A stretch of 64,000 nucleotides of DNA, taken from positions 76,846-140,845 of the forward strand of contig JAERST010000005.1 of NCBI GenBank assembly GCA_016845365.1, in the 5' to 3' direction. The position numbers and the translations under genes are program-made. The DNA is from Methanobacteriota archaeon. GTDB taxonomy: Archaea > Thermoplasmatota > Poseidoniia > Poseidoniales > Thalassarchaeaceae. The notes below the pieces were generated by a model that saw nothing but the letters and a program-made list of their open reading frames with translations, did no database searches and was not told where the DNA came from. Shown piece after piece: positions 13,798 through 19,887 of the stretch (position 1 is the first letter of the stretch; each line of letters starts with the position of its first letter).

Positions 13798-13844
13798 GGG
13801 CTTCGCTCAAGCGCGGTGGGGATGAATGCTGGGGTTGGAGTGGT

Positions 13845-13951
13845 TCAGCGTCGGCCGCTGCTGAGGTTTAGCGTCGGCCTCTGGCGAGGTTCAGCGTCGG
13901 CCGCTGCTGAGGTTCATCGTCGGCCGCTGATGTGACTCAACGTCGGCCGCT
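13845..13951. repeat. 23-bp tandem repeat, 5 copies, last copy covering the stop codon of the Gar1-like gene
   Basis: TCAGCGTCGGCCGCT-type units start at 13845, 13868, 13891, 13914, 13937 (exact 23-bp period). Confidence 0.95.
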
Positions 13952-14995
13952 GCCGCGGCCTGGGCGATTGCGGCTTGGGCCGCCCCTTCCGGGTCCTCTG
14001 AATCCTGGTCGGCGCGGCTTGCTGCCGCTGCCGGGTGACCTGCCTCGGCCGGGTCCGTCGCGTGGACCTGAGGTTCGTGGTCCACGGCGGTCTCCGCCGC
14101 GGTCAGAGCCTCGGTTTCCTCCGCGGGAATCCCTGCGGTCGCCTCCGTATGAACCGCCTCGGCCACCTCCACGGTTGCCTCCACGGTTGTCTGAGCGTGA
14201 GTCTCTGCGATCACCGCCGCGTGAGTCTCTGCGGTCACCGCCGCGGTTTCCACCGCCACCACGTCCTCCGCCACCGCTCGGGCGGCTGGCTTGGCAACGG
14301 TTGCACTTGTCGCGGAAAGCGAAGTTGTTATTCTTGCACTTGGGGCAATCCCAATCTCCATCGCGGCCGCCTTTGTTATCGCGGCTGCCGCGGTTATCGC
14401 GGCGGTCTCCACCTCGATTATCACGACCGCCGCGGTCATTACGTCGGTCGTATCCACGGTCATCGCGGCGCTGGAATCGGCCTTCGCTGCGCTGGCCTCC
14501 GCGGCCTCCGCTGCTTCCGGCACCTTCTGGGCGGTCTGCCTCACAGCGATTGCATTTATCGCGGAAGGCGAAATTATTGTTCTTGCACTTTGGGCAATCC
14601 CAATCGCCGCCGCGGTTGCCGCCGCGATTATCACGGCCTCCTCGGTCATTGCGGCGGTCGAATCCACGACCACCGTCGCGACCTCTTCCACCATCGCGTC
14701 CGCGACGGTCATCGCGGCGGTCGTAGCGGCCACGCCCGCGGTCTGAGCGTTCGCGCCGCTCCCGCGGCGCGATCTCAACTGGAGAACCGACCGCGCTCGA
14801 AGCATCGATATCTTCAGCCAATGGATGAATGTGAATCAGAGCGCGGTCGACGGCGCCAATCACCGTATTCACGCGACCAATCGGCTTGCCGCCAACGATT
14901 CGAAGTGTGGCACCGAGCCTAGGCGCCTTCCCCTCGAAGGCGATCATCAGACCGCCCTCGTAGGACTCCTTCTCGACCGTCCCGGAGAAGCTCAT
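13937..14995 (-). CDS. Gar1-like H/ACA RNP protein fused to two RanBP2-type zinc fingers and RGG-rich tracts
   Basis: N-term [35 protein letters not shown] (Gar1-like beta barrel); two copies of [21 protein letters not shown]; extensive RGG/RGGDRR tail. Confidence 0.85.
14285..14366 (-). other. RanBP2-type zinc finger, second copy (within Gar1-like CDS)
   Basis: [29 protein letters not shown]-x-C-x2-C-x3-N-x6-C-x2-C pattern. Confidence 0.85.
14529..14607 (-). other. RanBP2-type zinc finger, first copy (within Gar1-like CDS)
   Basis: [28 protein letters not shown]. Confidence 0.85.
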
Positions 14996-14999
14996 GGCC

Positions 15000-17003
15000 T
15001 CAGTCGCGTCGGCCCGAGTATATGAGTGCGGCAGATGCTGCGAGAATCAACCCCGGAAGCCCCATCGCTGGTAATCCGGACGTTGGTTCCGTGGGCGGCT
15101 CGGGCTCCGGCTCGGGTTCAACGAAGAGATGTGAATTGTTGACACTCCTCTGCTGACTTGTACAAACGCCAGATTCGTCGCAACCATGAACCATTATCTC
15201 GTGAACACCCTCTGCCCAGAAGGAGAAATCGATAGCGGGTGTGGACCAAGTATTGCCAGTGACACTCACTTCCCCAAGAGCCACCCCATCGATTAGCAAA
15301 GTGAAGGTAACAGCCTCACCATCTGGGTCGGAAAATTGTCCACTCATCGACCAAGAATTACCGTCCCATCCTTCACTATTCACGACAATCGATGGAGGCT
15401 GACTGGATTTCTTCACATTAAGAGAAACTGAATCCGAGGAGTGCCGAACACCAACACCTTCGACATCTAGCATGAACCAAACATCTCCTGGTATCATCGA
15501 TGTGGAAACCGCCTCAATTGTTGTCTCAGATTGGCCGATATCGAATGGACCGCTTATTTCGAAACCTCCACCCTCCAGTAGAGGCTGACTCATCTTGACC
15601 GTTACCTCGAGGTCCCCCCAACCCTCATTTGGTGTAATTGTCAATGAGTGAGGGTCCAGAAGTTCCAGCGATGATGTACTCACAGTGAATGGAACTCCAA
15701 TCTCCCAGGAACGAACCCCAGAGGATTGGTTCGCTGAATCAATCGCTTCACAGGTGAAGACATTGACGCTTCCATCGTTGGGAACCTGAACCTGCAAAAT
15801 ATTCCACTCCAATTCGATTTCACCGTCACCATCATGGCACTCAATATCCAATGAAGCGACTCCCGCCTCATCGCTAAACCAGCTTGAGAGTTCATCCCAA
15901 TCTGCCACCTTGTGCAATCCACCACCGAGTGCTGCGAAGCGCACACCTTGGTCCGGAGCATCCTCCGTCCACACAGGCGGCTCATCAACAGGAATCGGCG
16001 CGGTGGTGAAATCTGCAAACAAATCCTCACCCACCGGCCATTGTGGCATGTCTGGATAGAATGAGTAGGTCAAACTTCCATCCTCATTCTCTTGAATCGC
16101 GTAACTGCTCGAGCCATCACCGACACAGCTACCTCGCAATGGTGCACTGCCAGCATAATCTCCCATTGCCGCCTCGACATCTCGACCCTCGCATTCCTCC
16201 CACATGTCGAGGCGCAGCCCATCGGTTTGAGGGAATTGAATGTGGTATTCAACCTCTGACATATTCGAAGCATTGAATGCGACCGTGAACTGACTTGGGT
16301 CATCCACATTCGAGATCGTCAGCGTCGCATTCAACCAAAGCATCATGCGGCACTCATCCACCCCTGCAGAAGCATCGATATCGGTATCACAATCCCTCGC
16401 AGAATCGGGAGAAACCGGCACTTCGACGCAATCGCTACTGCTGCCGAAGCCAGAGCAATCACGGATTTCTGAATGGCGAGGCGGGACGAGGTTCCACTCC
16501 TCTACAAGCACCTCGTCCTCGGTCCAACTGACGTTTTTCCAATCGGTTCCTTCTCCCCCCCTGTGAGGGCTGCCGTCGCGCAGGGCTAGTCGGGTTAGGG
16601 TGTGTTGAACGCACTCTGAGGCAATTGCTCTAACTCCCTCTCTCTCATCTGTGGAAATCCATCCATCGTCGCCACTGGGATATACCGCTGCAACATATTC
16701 GTCCAGACTCTGTCGCACCGCATCGGCTAAACTCGCGTTAACCCAGACTACCGCCTCAACTTGTGCTGAATTCCAATCGTTTGCGATTTCTATGTCGAAG
16801 ATTGCCTTCGAGTATTCGAACATGTCTTCGAAGGTGATCGAGCTGCATTGTTCTTCGAGCGTCGGTCCGTCGCCGCCGAGTTGTTCACGACGCTCGTCAA
16901 ATTCCTGTAATTGATAGTCGGGTGCGCTCATTGGAACCCACGATGTGACCATCGCGAACATGGTGAGGAGGGCTGCGAAGCGGAGCGCATCGTCGCGACT
17001 CAT
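15000..17003 (-). CDS. Secreted surface protein with C-terminal sorting-like tripartite tail
   Basis: N-terminal signal ([22 protein letters not shown]); [38 protein letters not shown] tail. Confidence 0.8.
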
Positions 17004-17213: not shown

Positions 17214-18200
17214 ATGAGAACGAATGCGTTGATGAATGCTCTGTTAGCGGCTCTATTACTGAGTGCTGGTATGGCCGGATGCCTTGAATCGAAAGAAGAA
17301 GATGAGAAGGTGATCCGAATCGCTTTCAAGACTCAAGATGATTACGAAGATCCTGCGGCAAATCCGCAGACCCTTGCTGACTTCATCGCGGCTCAATCGG
17401 GCTACGAAGTCGAACTATACCCAATTACCTCAGACATCGCTGCAATCGAGGCTCTTCGCTTCGGTCACGCCGATATCGCATCCCTCGACGGAGGCGCTGC
17501 GTGGATTGCTTGGAAGCAACACGGACTTGAGGCAATCCTCGCTGACCAGAAGAGCGACGGAACCACTTACTATACCGCTCAGGCATGGGTCCTCGCAGAC
17601 TCAGAAATTCAGTCCCTCGAGGACCTTGAAGGTAAGGATTCCTGCCACACCGGCTGGCTGAAGTCAGCTGGAATGTTGATGCCGATGGGTTACATGATCA
17701 ACAACGGCATCGTTGAAGTCAGCGGAGATGCTGACGACATCGCCTCTCTACGAACCACAATCGAGGATCACTTCGGTAATGCCTCGATTCCTGAGAAGGG
17801 CGACCTCTACTACAGCTACAGCGGTGCCTTCCGCTGCATGACCGAGGGAGTGGGCGATGTCGCATTCGGTAAGTCAACCTCCTACGAAGACCACTGCGAG
17901 GGTAATGATTGGTGCCTCGAGCGAGACCAGTACCGTCCACTCGAGCCTGCTTTTGGACAGGTCCCAAGCCACCCAGTGATGGTCAATACTGAGACCACGA
18001 GCCAAGAGAAGATCGACGTGATTGTTGAGGCATTCCTCGCATTGAATTCTGAGGAGGGTGGATTGGAGATTCTTGACGGAGTCCTCAACACTCCTGGAAT
18101 TTCACAGGTCACATCTGAGGAGCACCTTGGCTCGTACAGCGATGCGATTGGAGCAATCCCGGGCATCGCAGCCTACTTCGATGAGAAGTACGACGAATGA
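17214..18200 (+). CDS. ABC transporter substrate-binding lipoprotein, PhnD/phosphonate-type
   Basis: Lipobox LLSAGMAGC; PhnD-like fold signatures (DIASLDGGAAWIAWKQHG, QVPSHPVMVNTETTSQEK); next to ATPase and permease. Confidence 0.85.
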   Translation: MRTNALMNALLAALLLSAGMAGCLESKEEDEKVIRIAFKTQDDYEDPAANPQTLADFIAAQSGYEVELYPITSDIAAIEALRFGHADIASLDGGAAWIAWKQHGLEAILADQKSDGTTYYTAQAWVLADSEIQSLEDLEGKDSCHTGWLKSAGMLMPMGYMINNGIVEVSGDADDIASLRTTIEDHFGNASIPEKGDLYYSYSGAFRCMTEGVGDVAFGKSTSYEDHCEGNDWCLERDQYRPLEPAFGQVPSHPVMVNTETTSQEKIDVIVEAFLALNSEEGGLEILDGVLNTPGISQVTSEEHLGSYSDAIGAIPGIAAYFDEKYDE

Positions 18201-18964
18201 GCATGGAGAGCACGGGCGGGGTATCGGTGGAAGACCCGAACCCCGTCCGTCTCCGCATGGTTGATGCTGCCATCGGCTTCGACCCCGAGCAACCTCTAAT
18301 CGAGGGCTTGAACCTCGAGGTCAGAGCCGGAGAAATCGTCGGCCTGACCGGCCGTTCAGGTATTGGTAAGACGACCCTGCTGCGCACTGCAGCTGGGCTC
18401 GTCAAGCCACTTTCCGGCTCGGTCGAATGCTGCTGTACTTCGACGACTCGAGCCGAGAAAGGGGCTATCGGTCTGATTCCGCAAAGGCTTGGCCTTGTGC
18501 AACATCAGACCGTTGGATACAACGTATTGATGGGCGCCCTGACCGAAGCGAGTTTCCTTCAGACCGCCTTGTCCTTGCCGAGCAAGCGAATGCGGGATGA
18601 AACGAGAGAGGTCATCGATGAGGTCGGCCTCGCCGACAAGACTCTCGAATCGGTCAACCGCTTATCTGGTGGGCAACAAAGGCGAGTGGCGATCGCGCGC
18701 GCGATGCTGCAAGAGCCGGACCTATTGCTTGCCGATGAATGTCTAGGAGAACTCGATGCTGAGACCGCGCGGGGTATCATCGAATTATTCCGCCACATGG
18801 CCGAAGACCACCGCATGGCGATTCTTCTCGTCGACCACAATCCAGTTCGTGCGCGAACCTTTTGCGACCGCGTCCTACAATTGCGTGGACGCCGCCTTAT
18901 CCCATTCGATGAGGATGAGGAGTCAAAAGCAACTCTGCCGTTAATCGAGGAGGTCGGTTCGTGA
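18197..18964 (+). CDS. ABC transporter ATP-binding protein, PhnC-like
   Basis: Walker A GRSGIGKTTLLR, signature LSGGQQRRVAIARAM, Walker B LLLADECLGELD; 4-bp overlap with upstream gene. Confidence 0.92.
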   Translation: MSMESTGGVSVEDPNPVRLRMVDAAIGFDPEQPLIEGLNLEVRAGEIVGLTGRSGIGKTTLLRTAAGLVKPLSGSVECCCTSTTRAEKGAIGLIPQRLGLVQHQTVGYNVLMGALTEASFLQTALSLPSKRMRDETREVIDEVGLADKTLESVNRLSGGQQRRVAIARAMLQEPDLLLADECLGELDAETARGIIELFRHMAEDHRMAILLVDHNPVRARTFCDRVLQLRGRRLIPFDEDEESKATLPLIEEVGS

Positions 18965-19887
18965 GCGAGTCTCGTCTGGCGAGCAGTCTTCGACTTCTCG
19001 CTCGCCGGCCCGTGCTTCGGGCCGGTGTCTTGATCGGAATCATCACCCTCCTCATCACTAATCATCTGCAGATTACTCTGTGGAAGTTGGTCGATGGATG
19101 GAGCAATCTCTTAGTGCTCGGTTCGGAGGCTCTCCCACCTGATTTCAGCGTCCTCACCGAGCGCGCCGGCTGGACCCATCCACCCTGCACCTTCGAGTCT
19201 GATTTTCTTTGTTCTCCAGCCGTCGTCGGCATGACTCAGACCATCGAGATTGCATTTTTGGCAACGGTTTTCGGGATGATTATCTCGCTTCCGCTCGCAG
19301 CGATGGCAGCCTCGAATTTGTCGCCTTACTGGCTCTCACAAACCACCCGCCAAATCCTCGCCGCCATGAGAGTCCTCCCCTCGCTCATCTGGGCGCTAAT
19401 ATTCGTCATAATAGTCGGAATCGGCCCTCTTGCGGGCGTCCTTGCGATGACGATGTACACCGTTGGATATCTCGGGAAACTGCAGTACGAGGCGCTTGAA
19501 GGGGTTAGCAAGGAGCCCCTCGAAGTAGCGCGCGCCATGGGCCTCCCGCGCTGGCAGGTGGCGCGCTTCTTCGCCATCCCTGAAGCGAGTAATGCCTTGC
19601 TCAGTCAGATGCTTTTCATGTTCGAGTACAATGTTCGTCACGGGTCGGTGATCGGACTCGTTGGAGCCGGTGGAATCGGCTGGTACATGAATCACTATCT
19701 CTCACCCTTCCAACTCTACGACAAAGTGCTCGCGCTCATCATCGTGATGTTTGTGGTCGTGGTTGCAATCGACCAGATTTCTCTGCGCGTGCGCCGCGGT
19801 TTTATCGACGATGTCAACGAATTGCGACGACCGCGCTGGCGTGATATTCTCATCAGCCGCGATCCGGTAAAGACCGATTCAAACTGA
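18961..19887 (+). CDS. ABC transporter permease, PhnE-like
   Basis: Multi-TM; EAA loop EALEGVSKEPLEVARAMGLPRWQVARFFAIPEA. Confidence 0.9.
   Translation: MSESRLASSLRLLARRPVLRAGVLIGIITLLITNHLQITLWKLVDGWSNLLVLGSEALPPDFSVLTERAGWTHPPCTFESDFLCSPAVVGMTQTIEIAFLATVFGMIISLPLAAMAASNLSPYWLSQTTRQILAAMRVLPSLIWALIFVIIVGIGPLAGVLAMTMYTVGYLGKLQYEALEGVSKEPLEVARAMGLPRWQVARFFAIPEASNALLSQMLFMFEYNVRHGSVIGLVGAGGIGWYMNHYLSPFQLYDKVLALIIVMFVVVVAIDQISLRVRRGFIDDVNELRRPRWRDILISRDPVKTDSN

Follow-up and report, generated by a model that had tools for sequence, protein, structure and literature searches.

A Gar1 protein with an RG-rich tail and FUS-type RanBP2 zinc fingers in the marine archaeal order Poseidoniales

RESULTS

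A Gar1-type barrel is followed by a long tail that carries two zinc fingers

The window analyzed here, a stretch of 64,000 nucleotides from a Thalassarchaeaceae genome of the order Poseidoniales, holds on its minus strand an open reading frame of 352 codons that starts with ATG and is read down from position 14995 (13937 to 14995), precisely where the initial annotation had placed it. The protein, which we call Gar1 for the reasons given below, opens with a beta-barrel (residues 1 to 82; 14750 to 14995) and continues with a first RG/RGG-rich linker (residues 83 to 128; 14612 to 14749), a RanBP2-type zinc finger (core residues 131 to 151; 14543 to 14605), a second RG/RGG-rich linker (residues 152 to 213; 14357 to 14542), a second RanBP2-type finger (core residues 214 to 234; 14294 to 14356), and an RG/RGG-rich C-terminal tail (residues 235 to 352; 13940 to 14293), all on the minus strand. 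The full-length AF2 model consists of the barrel and two small finger folds (pLDDT of about 87), while both linkers and most of the C-terminal tail are predicted to be disordered (pLDDT below 50 over residues 78 to 128, 160 to 211, and 242 to 352). The isoelectric point is 11.4 for the whole protein and 6.1 for the barrel alone. Long open reading frames antisense to gar1 were dismissed as shadow frames, produced by the GC-rich and repetitive sequence of the gene, since homologs keep the minus-strand frame. About five copies of a 23-bp repeat, containing a small inverted repeat (CAGCG..CGCTG), lie over the gar1 stop codon and 3' flank (13842 to 13953); this repeat does not occur in the nearest relative (L005).

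Four base pairs before gar1, on the same strand, lies the gene of a 667-residue protein (15000 to 17003, minus strand) whose N terminus has a hydrophobic segment and whose C terminus has a segment resembling a membrane anchor; the protein is probably secreted and membrane anchored. In 107 of 108 loci, a homolog of this gene immediately precedes gar1 on the same strand, often by only 2 to 5 bp, and the two genes are probably cotranscribed. The neighbor is not part of Gar1 function, and the order-wide pairing of a surface-type protein gene with that of an H/ACA protein was unexpected. Genes of a phosphate/phosphonate-type ABC transporter (substrate-binding protein, ATPase, and permease, assigned by eye) adjoin the cluster at 17214 to 19887.

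The family, more than the single sequence, identifies the barrel as Gar1

Taken alone, the window protein scores weakly against Gar1 models, below their curated cutoffs (PF04410, E = 0.03; NCBIfam NF009632, E = 0.003), and the canonical GPV..P signature has drifted in it (GAV). A profile built from 18 close N-domains (A1) had no match in the PDB. The best PDB match of a second profile, built from 43 diverse N-domains from across the order (A2), was Gar1 from Pyrococcus furiosus (2hvy, E = 4.7e-5), then 3mqk, 2rfk, and 2ey4, with yeast Gar1 in fifth place (E = 0.095). PF04410 matches 41 of the 43 members of this set (best E-value, 1.7e-7), and the NCBIfam Gar1 models reach 1.5e-9 among them. 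Structure points the same way: the 14 best Foldseek matches of the N-domain model (pLDDT of 89.5) are all Gar1 chains, from Pyrococcus, yeast, human, and insect, with TM scores of 0.72/0.84 to 2ey4, and Naf1 appears only from rank 23 on (TM of 0.57). With so small a domain, modest Foldseek E-values (1.6e-3) are to be expected. Hence the assignment is weak from the window sequence alone but firm, indeed decisive, from the family. The earlier proposal that the N-terminal 80 or so residues are Gar1-like was thus borne out structurally, with the barrel now delimited to residues 1 to 82.

The genome from which the window derives (26 contigs, 83.7% complete) encodes Cbf5 (E = 3e-102), Nop10 (E = 6e-12), fibrillarin (E = 1e-41), and an L7Ae-family protein, whose match (E = 9e-31) stays below the curated cutoff. 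Beside these, no other credible Gar1 was found in the 26 contigs, a second Gar1-like match (contig C24, E = 0.47) being set aside as chance. Across the order, Cbf5 was found in 56 of 60 genomes, and gar1 is almost always a single gene. The initial annotation would have been contradicted by a separate canonical Gar1 partnered with Cbf5 and Nop10, and none appeared. Together, these observations are best read as showing that the window protein is a true Gar1, the H/ACA RNP protein of Poseidoniales.

The tail is a GAR-type domain whose basic character does not track GC content

Residues 83 to 352 of the window protein (270 amino acids) include 72 glycines and 71 arginines (53% G+R), with 15 RGG and 27 RG motifs. 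Among the 38 long frames of the window, this tail contains the 100-residue segment with the highest G+R fraction (0.64); the next is the frame antisense to gar1, and the next nonoverlapping frame reaches only 0.27. With its long disordered run and more than about 10 RGG/RG repeats, the tail qualifies as a GAR domain, although it differs from those of vertebrates in being D-rich and F-poor; it is poor in aromatic residues in general and has 3 Y and 3 Q. Neither Cbf5 nor fibrillarin of the same genome carries a GAR or lysine-rich extension, which argues that the RG tail belongs to Gar1 rather than to the modification machinery in general. Across the Gar1s of the order, the G+R fraction of the tail follows genomic GC in part (rho = 0.47), but the R+K fraction does not (rho = -0.11, P = 0.27), and arginine-bearing tails, encoded by AGR codons, are kept at 34 to 43% GC. 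The basic character of the tail therefore does not track genomic GC.

The description of the tail as RGG low complexity interrupted by two fingers was accurate but incomplete, since a genus-conserved block is also present at its C-terminal end. In Gar1s of Poseidoniales family f2 (L133, L139, L155, L172, L175, and others), the last 40 or so residues hold the conserved motif FRKARGK..GHAHNRPP, which is retained even in the fingerless protein of genus g19, and Gar1 of genus g15 shows a variant motif, GGPR.KGHHRK. Many contigs of metagenome-assembled genomes (L118, L119, L120, L127, L130, and others) end within the gar1 tail, so the repeats in it probably interrupt assembly and cause surveys to miss the trait.

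The fusion spans Poseidoniales, with probable repeated loss of the fingers

The gar1 gene was found in 133 of 146 Poseidoniales (MGII) genomes, and we read it in 110 genomes of the order and in 27 named contigs, the named relatives being "Candidatus Thalassarchaeaceae" and other MGII/Poseidoniales. Fingers, recognized by their four-cysteine pattern, occur in 17 of 21 genera with 1 to 4 per protein, counts that are lower bounds because most of the surveyed genomes are incomplete and the repetitive tail is often truncated at a contig end. No sampled member of genera g6 and g8 has fingers, nor does the single g19 genome, but Gar1 still has an RG-rich tail in all of these; in g2, gar1 is cut off by a contig end. 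When mapped on a tree built from the conserved upstream gene, the finger state changes three times, with each fingerless group nested among finger-bearing ones. Outside the order, the one MGIII Gar1 (L221) is a bare barrel, and the Gar1s of other Thermoplasmatota are short; some of the latter (L209, L211, and L213) have short basic tails in which we saw no fingers. Thus, of the two groups in which the initial annotation had suggested looking for the fusion, MGII has it and the MGIII representative does not. Given this nesting and the short or bare Gar1s elsewhere, the simplest reading is one gain of fingers at the base of the order followed by three losses, a parsimony argument in which the root is assumed rather than inferred by the tree.

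Our survey covered one phylum. In it, PF00641 scored above its cutoff in 28 of 145 genomes, 27 of them Poseidoniales. Most of these matches belong to the reading frame of gar1, and a few are on fragments at contig edges that resemble the other half of a broken gar1; both matches in the window genome are in gar1 itself. The sole finger above the cutoff outside Poseidoniales lies in a 465-residue frame (G177:C2:2900-2983). One genome (G113) had two finger-bearing, gar1-like genes, on contigs C37 and C38, reflecting either a paralog or a mixed bin. The A2-based search gave matches in 75 of the 145 genomes and missed many divergent Gar1s, so that absence elsewhere in the phylum is not evidence of loss. 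Viral contigs held no Gar1 relatives.

The fingers are of the RNA-binding RanBP2 type and under purifying selection

A Pfam scan, which the initial annotation had proposed as a check, identified both fingers of the window protein as PF00641 (E = 2.2e-19; 68.8 bits against a cutoff of 27), and each has the four cysteines. Among solved chains, the FUS zinc finger comes closest (6g99_B, E = 1.3e-6). The two cores, described earlier as near identical, are in fact identical in protein, and their DNA differs at 10 of 63 nucleotides, all synonymous. Without constraint, 10 synonymous and no replacement differences would arise by chance with a probability of about 7e-7 (kappa of 4). The fingers are therefore under purifying selection; they are neither a chance pattern nor a recent copy, the 10 synonymous differences ruling out a recent duplication.

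In ZRANB2, FUS, and EWS, the contact residues of the finger bind GGU (PMC6384913, whose residue numbering we adopt). Among the 178 fingers of the Poseidoniales family, these positions are strongly conserved (D4 in 173, W5 in 178, N14 in 166, R20 in 146, and N24 in 168), while noncontact neighbors such as +8, +14, and +15 vary; both window fingers have D4, N14, R20, and N24. At position 19, F occurs in 101 family fingers and W in 13, with R, S, or N in some genera. The window fingers have F19 and keep R20, and FUS and EWS have W19 and R20 and still bind GGU (PMC6384913), so that the label FUS-like proved apt. However, most fingers of genera g5, g9, and g11 carry K20 together with S19 or N19, the g10 fingers are degenerate, and a zebrafish finger that does not bind RNA has S19 and K20 (PMC6384913). 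RNA binding may accordingly have been lost or changed in g5, g9, and g11, and GG binding cannot be universal in the order.

RanBP2 fingers of the ubiquitin-binding (NZF) type carry a Thr-Phe dipeptide after the second cysteine. This type was rejected for the Poseidoniales fingers, which have mainly N, K, or Q followed by N at these positions (N14 in 166 of 178).

DISCUSSION

What might the tail do? Archaeal Gar1 binds to Cbf5, including the thumb loop, and accelerates both loading and release; its barrel does not touch the guide RNA (PMC7991803; PMC6138745). In yeast, Gar1 without its RGG regions gives a lower single-turnover yield of both hairpins and a changed multiple-turnover yield, and the authors inferred that these regions contact substrate RNA (PMC8096250). 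The most plausible reading of the MGII tail, by this analogy, is an RNA-gripping arm: we predict, with a probability of roughly 0.55, that it is tethered to the H/ACA enzyme and adds single-stranded, GG-preferring RNA binding to it. The barrel would dock on Cbf5 and control the thumb loop as its homologs do in other archaea, the fingers would read GG-containing single-stranded stretches through GG(U/G) binding, and the RG tracts would bind RNA without much specificity. The arm could thereby enrich or better retain substrate rRNA, or guide RNA, at the pseudouridine synthase, with a presumed effect on catalysis. The single-strand GG preference of the fingers would be an extra that the eukaryotic tail is not known to have, and it is tempting to speculate that such an arm may be useful in cool seawater, where RNA exchange is slow. 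In favor of a tethered arm are the Gar1 identity of the barrel, the order-wide fusion, the purifying selection on the fingers, their retained RNA-contact residues, and the persistence of RG tails where fingers were lost. Against it, fingers are missing from two entire genera, the canonical GPV..P signature has drifted, and the GAR tails of yeast are dispensable in vivo (PMC7991803).

Alternatively, the tail may mainly drive condensation, with RG tracts and fingers clustering H/ACA RNPs and nascent rRNA in a nucleolus-like focus. GAR domains of eukaryotic Gar1 and fibrillarin have been reported to drive condensation (PMC11528048), the RGG-finger-RGG layout resembles that of FET proteins, and the tail is long and multivalent; however, the unextended fibrillarin and Cbf5 of the window genome mean that the partners thought to cooperate in eukaryotes are missing, and the tail is D-rich and aromatic-poor, making this prediction unlikely. 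We consider it equally doubtful that Gar1 moonlights as a general RNA chaperone whose tail targets RNA outside the H/ACA RNP, such as mRNA. While a highly basic protein (pI of 11.4) with a tail much longer than its barrel and FUS-like fingers, up to four in some genera, would suit such a role, in every case the tail is joined to the Gar1 barrel, and the order's above-cutoff RanBP2 fingers lie in gar1 frames or apparent contig-edge pieces of them rather than in clearly separate proteins. It is improbable that the barrel no longer works as Gar1, having become Naf1-like or taken on some other role: the weak single-sequence score (PF04410, E = 0.03) and the altered GPV motif could be taken that way, but Foldseek places 14 Gar1 chains above Naf1, and neither the genome nor, as a rule, the order has another Gar1, even though Cbf5 and Nop10 persist. 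Finally, a nonadaptive low-complexity expansion in GC-rich DNA, suggested by the variable tail length and finger number and by the correlation of G+R with GC, is very hard to reconcile with purifying selection on the fingers, a GC-independent R+K fraction, and AGR-coded arginine tails at low GC.

The RG-rich tail bears on a feature considered eukaryotic. A 2021 review describes archaeal Gar1 as lacking both GAR regions (PMC7991803), a 2024 paper holds that GAR domains arose with eukaryotes and that archaeal snoRNPs lack them (PMC11528048), and a 2020 survey with RG-region models found no match in 148 archaeal proteomes (PMC7608942). An abundant marine archaeal order contradicts this published absence from archaeal Gar1. 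We tentatively suggest, as a possibility worth serious attention, that Poseidoniales independently evolved a GAR-type Gar1 and equipped it with sequence-reading, FUS-type fingers, giving the H/ACA enzyme a recruitment arm for rRNA or a nucleolus-like condensate. If true, this would be a natural replicate, in cells without a nucleus, of a feature held to be eukaryote specific. The order also offers a nucleus-free system in which to test whether Gar1 tails serve substrate capture or condensation: Cbf5 and fibrillarin of the window genome carry no such extension, and the repeated finger losses supply natural controls.

Compared with known systems, the window protein shares with P. furiosus Gar1 (2hvy/2ey4), its best PDB match by both profile and structure, the beta-barrel fold, its length, and the signature region. 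The P. furiosus protein, however, adds to its barrel a short lysine-rich end but no RG tail or fingers, and the GPV..P motif has drifted in Poseidoniales. Yeast and human GAR1 likewise combine the barrel with disordered RG/RGG-rich sequence, but have GAR regions on both sides of the barrel and no zinc fingers, whereas the Poseidoniales RG region is C-terminal only, D-rich, and interrupted by RanBP2 fingers; the two kinds of RG tail are likely convergent. The FET proteins (FUS, EWS, and TAF15) have a finger of the same subtype between RGG tracts (FUS, 6g99, E = 1.3e-6), yet the window protein has a Gar1 barrel in place of their RRM and SYGQ-rich N terminus: the Pfam scan found no RRM in it, and its tail has 3 Y and 3 Q, which sets it outside that family. 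ZRANB2 and other RNA-binding RanBP2 proteins share the D4, W5, N14, R20, and N24 set and the repeated fingers, but ZRANB2-type fingers have R at position 19, which is mostly F in Poseidoniales, where the fingers are prokaryotic and fused to Gar1. We found no earlier report of a Gar1-RanBP2 fusion in the open-licence literature. The Poseidoniales fusion thus represents a previously unreported form of Gar1 rather than a new type of system.
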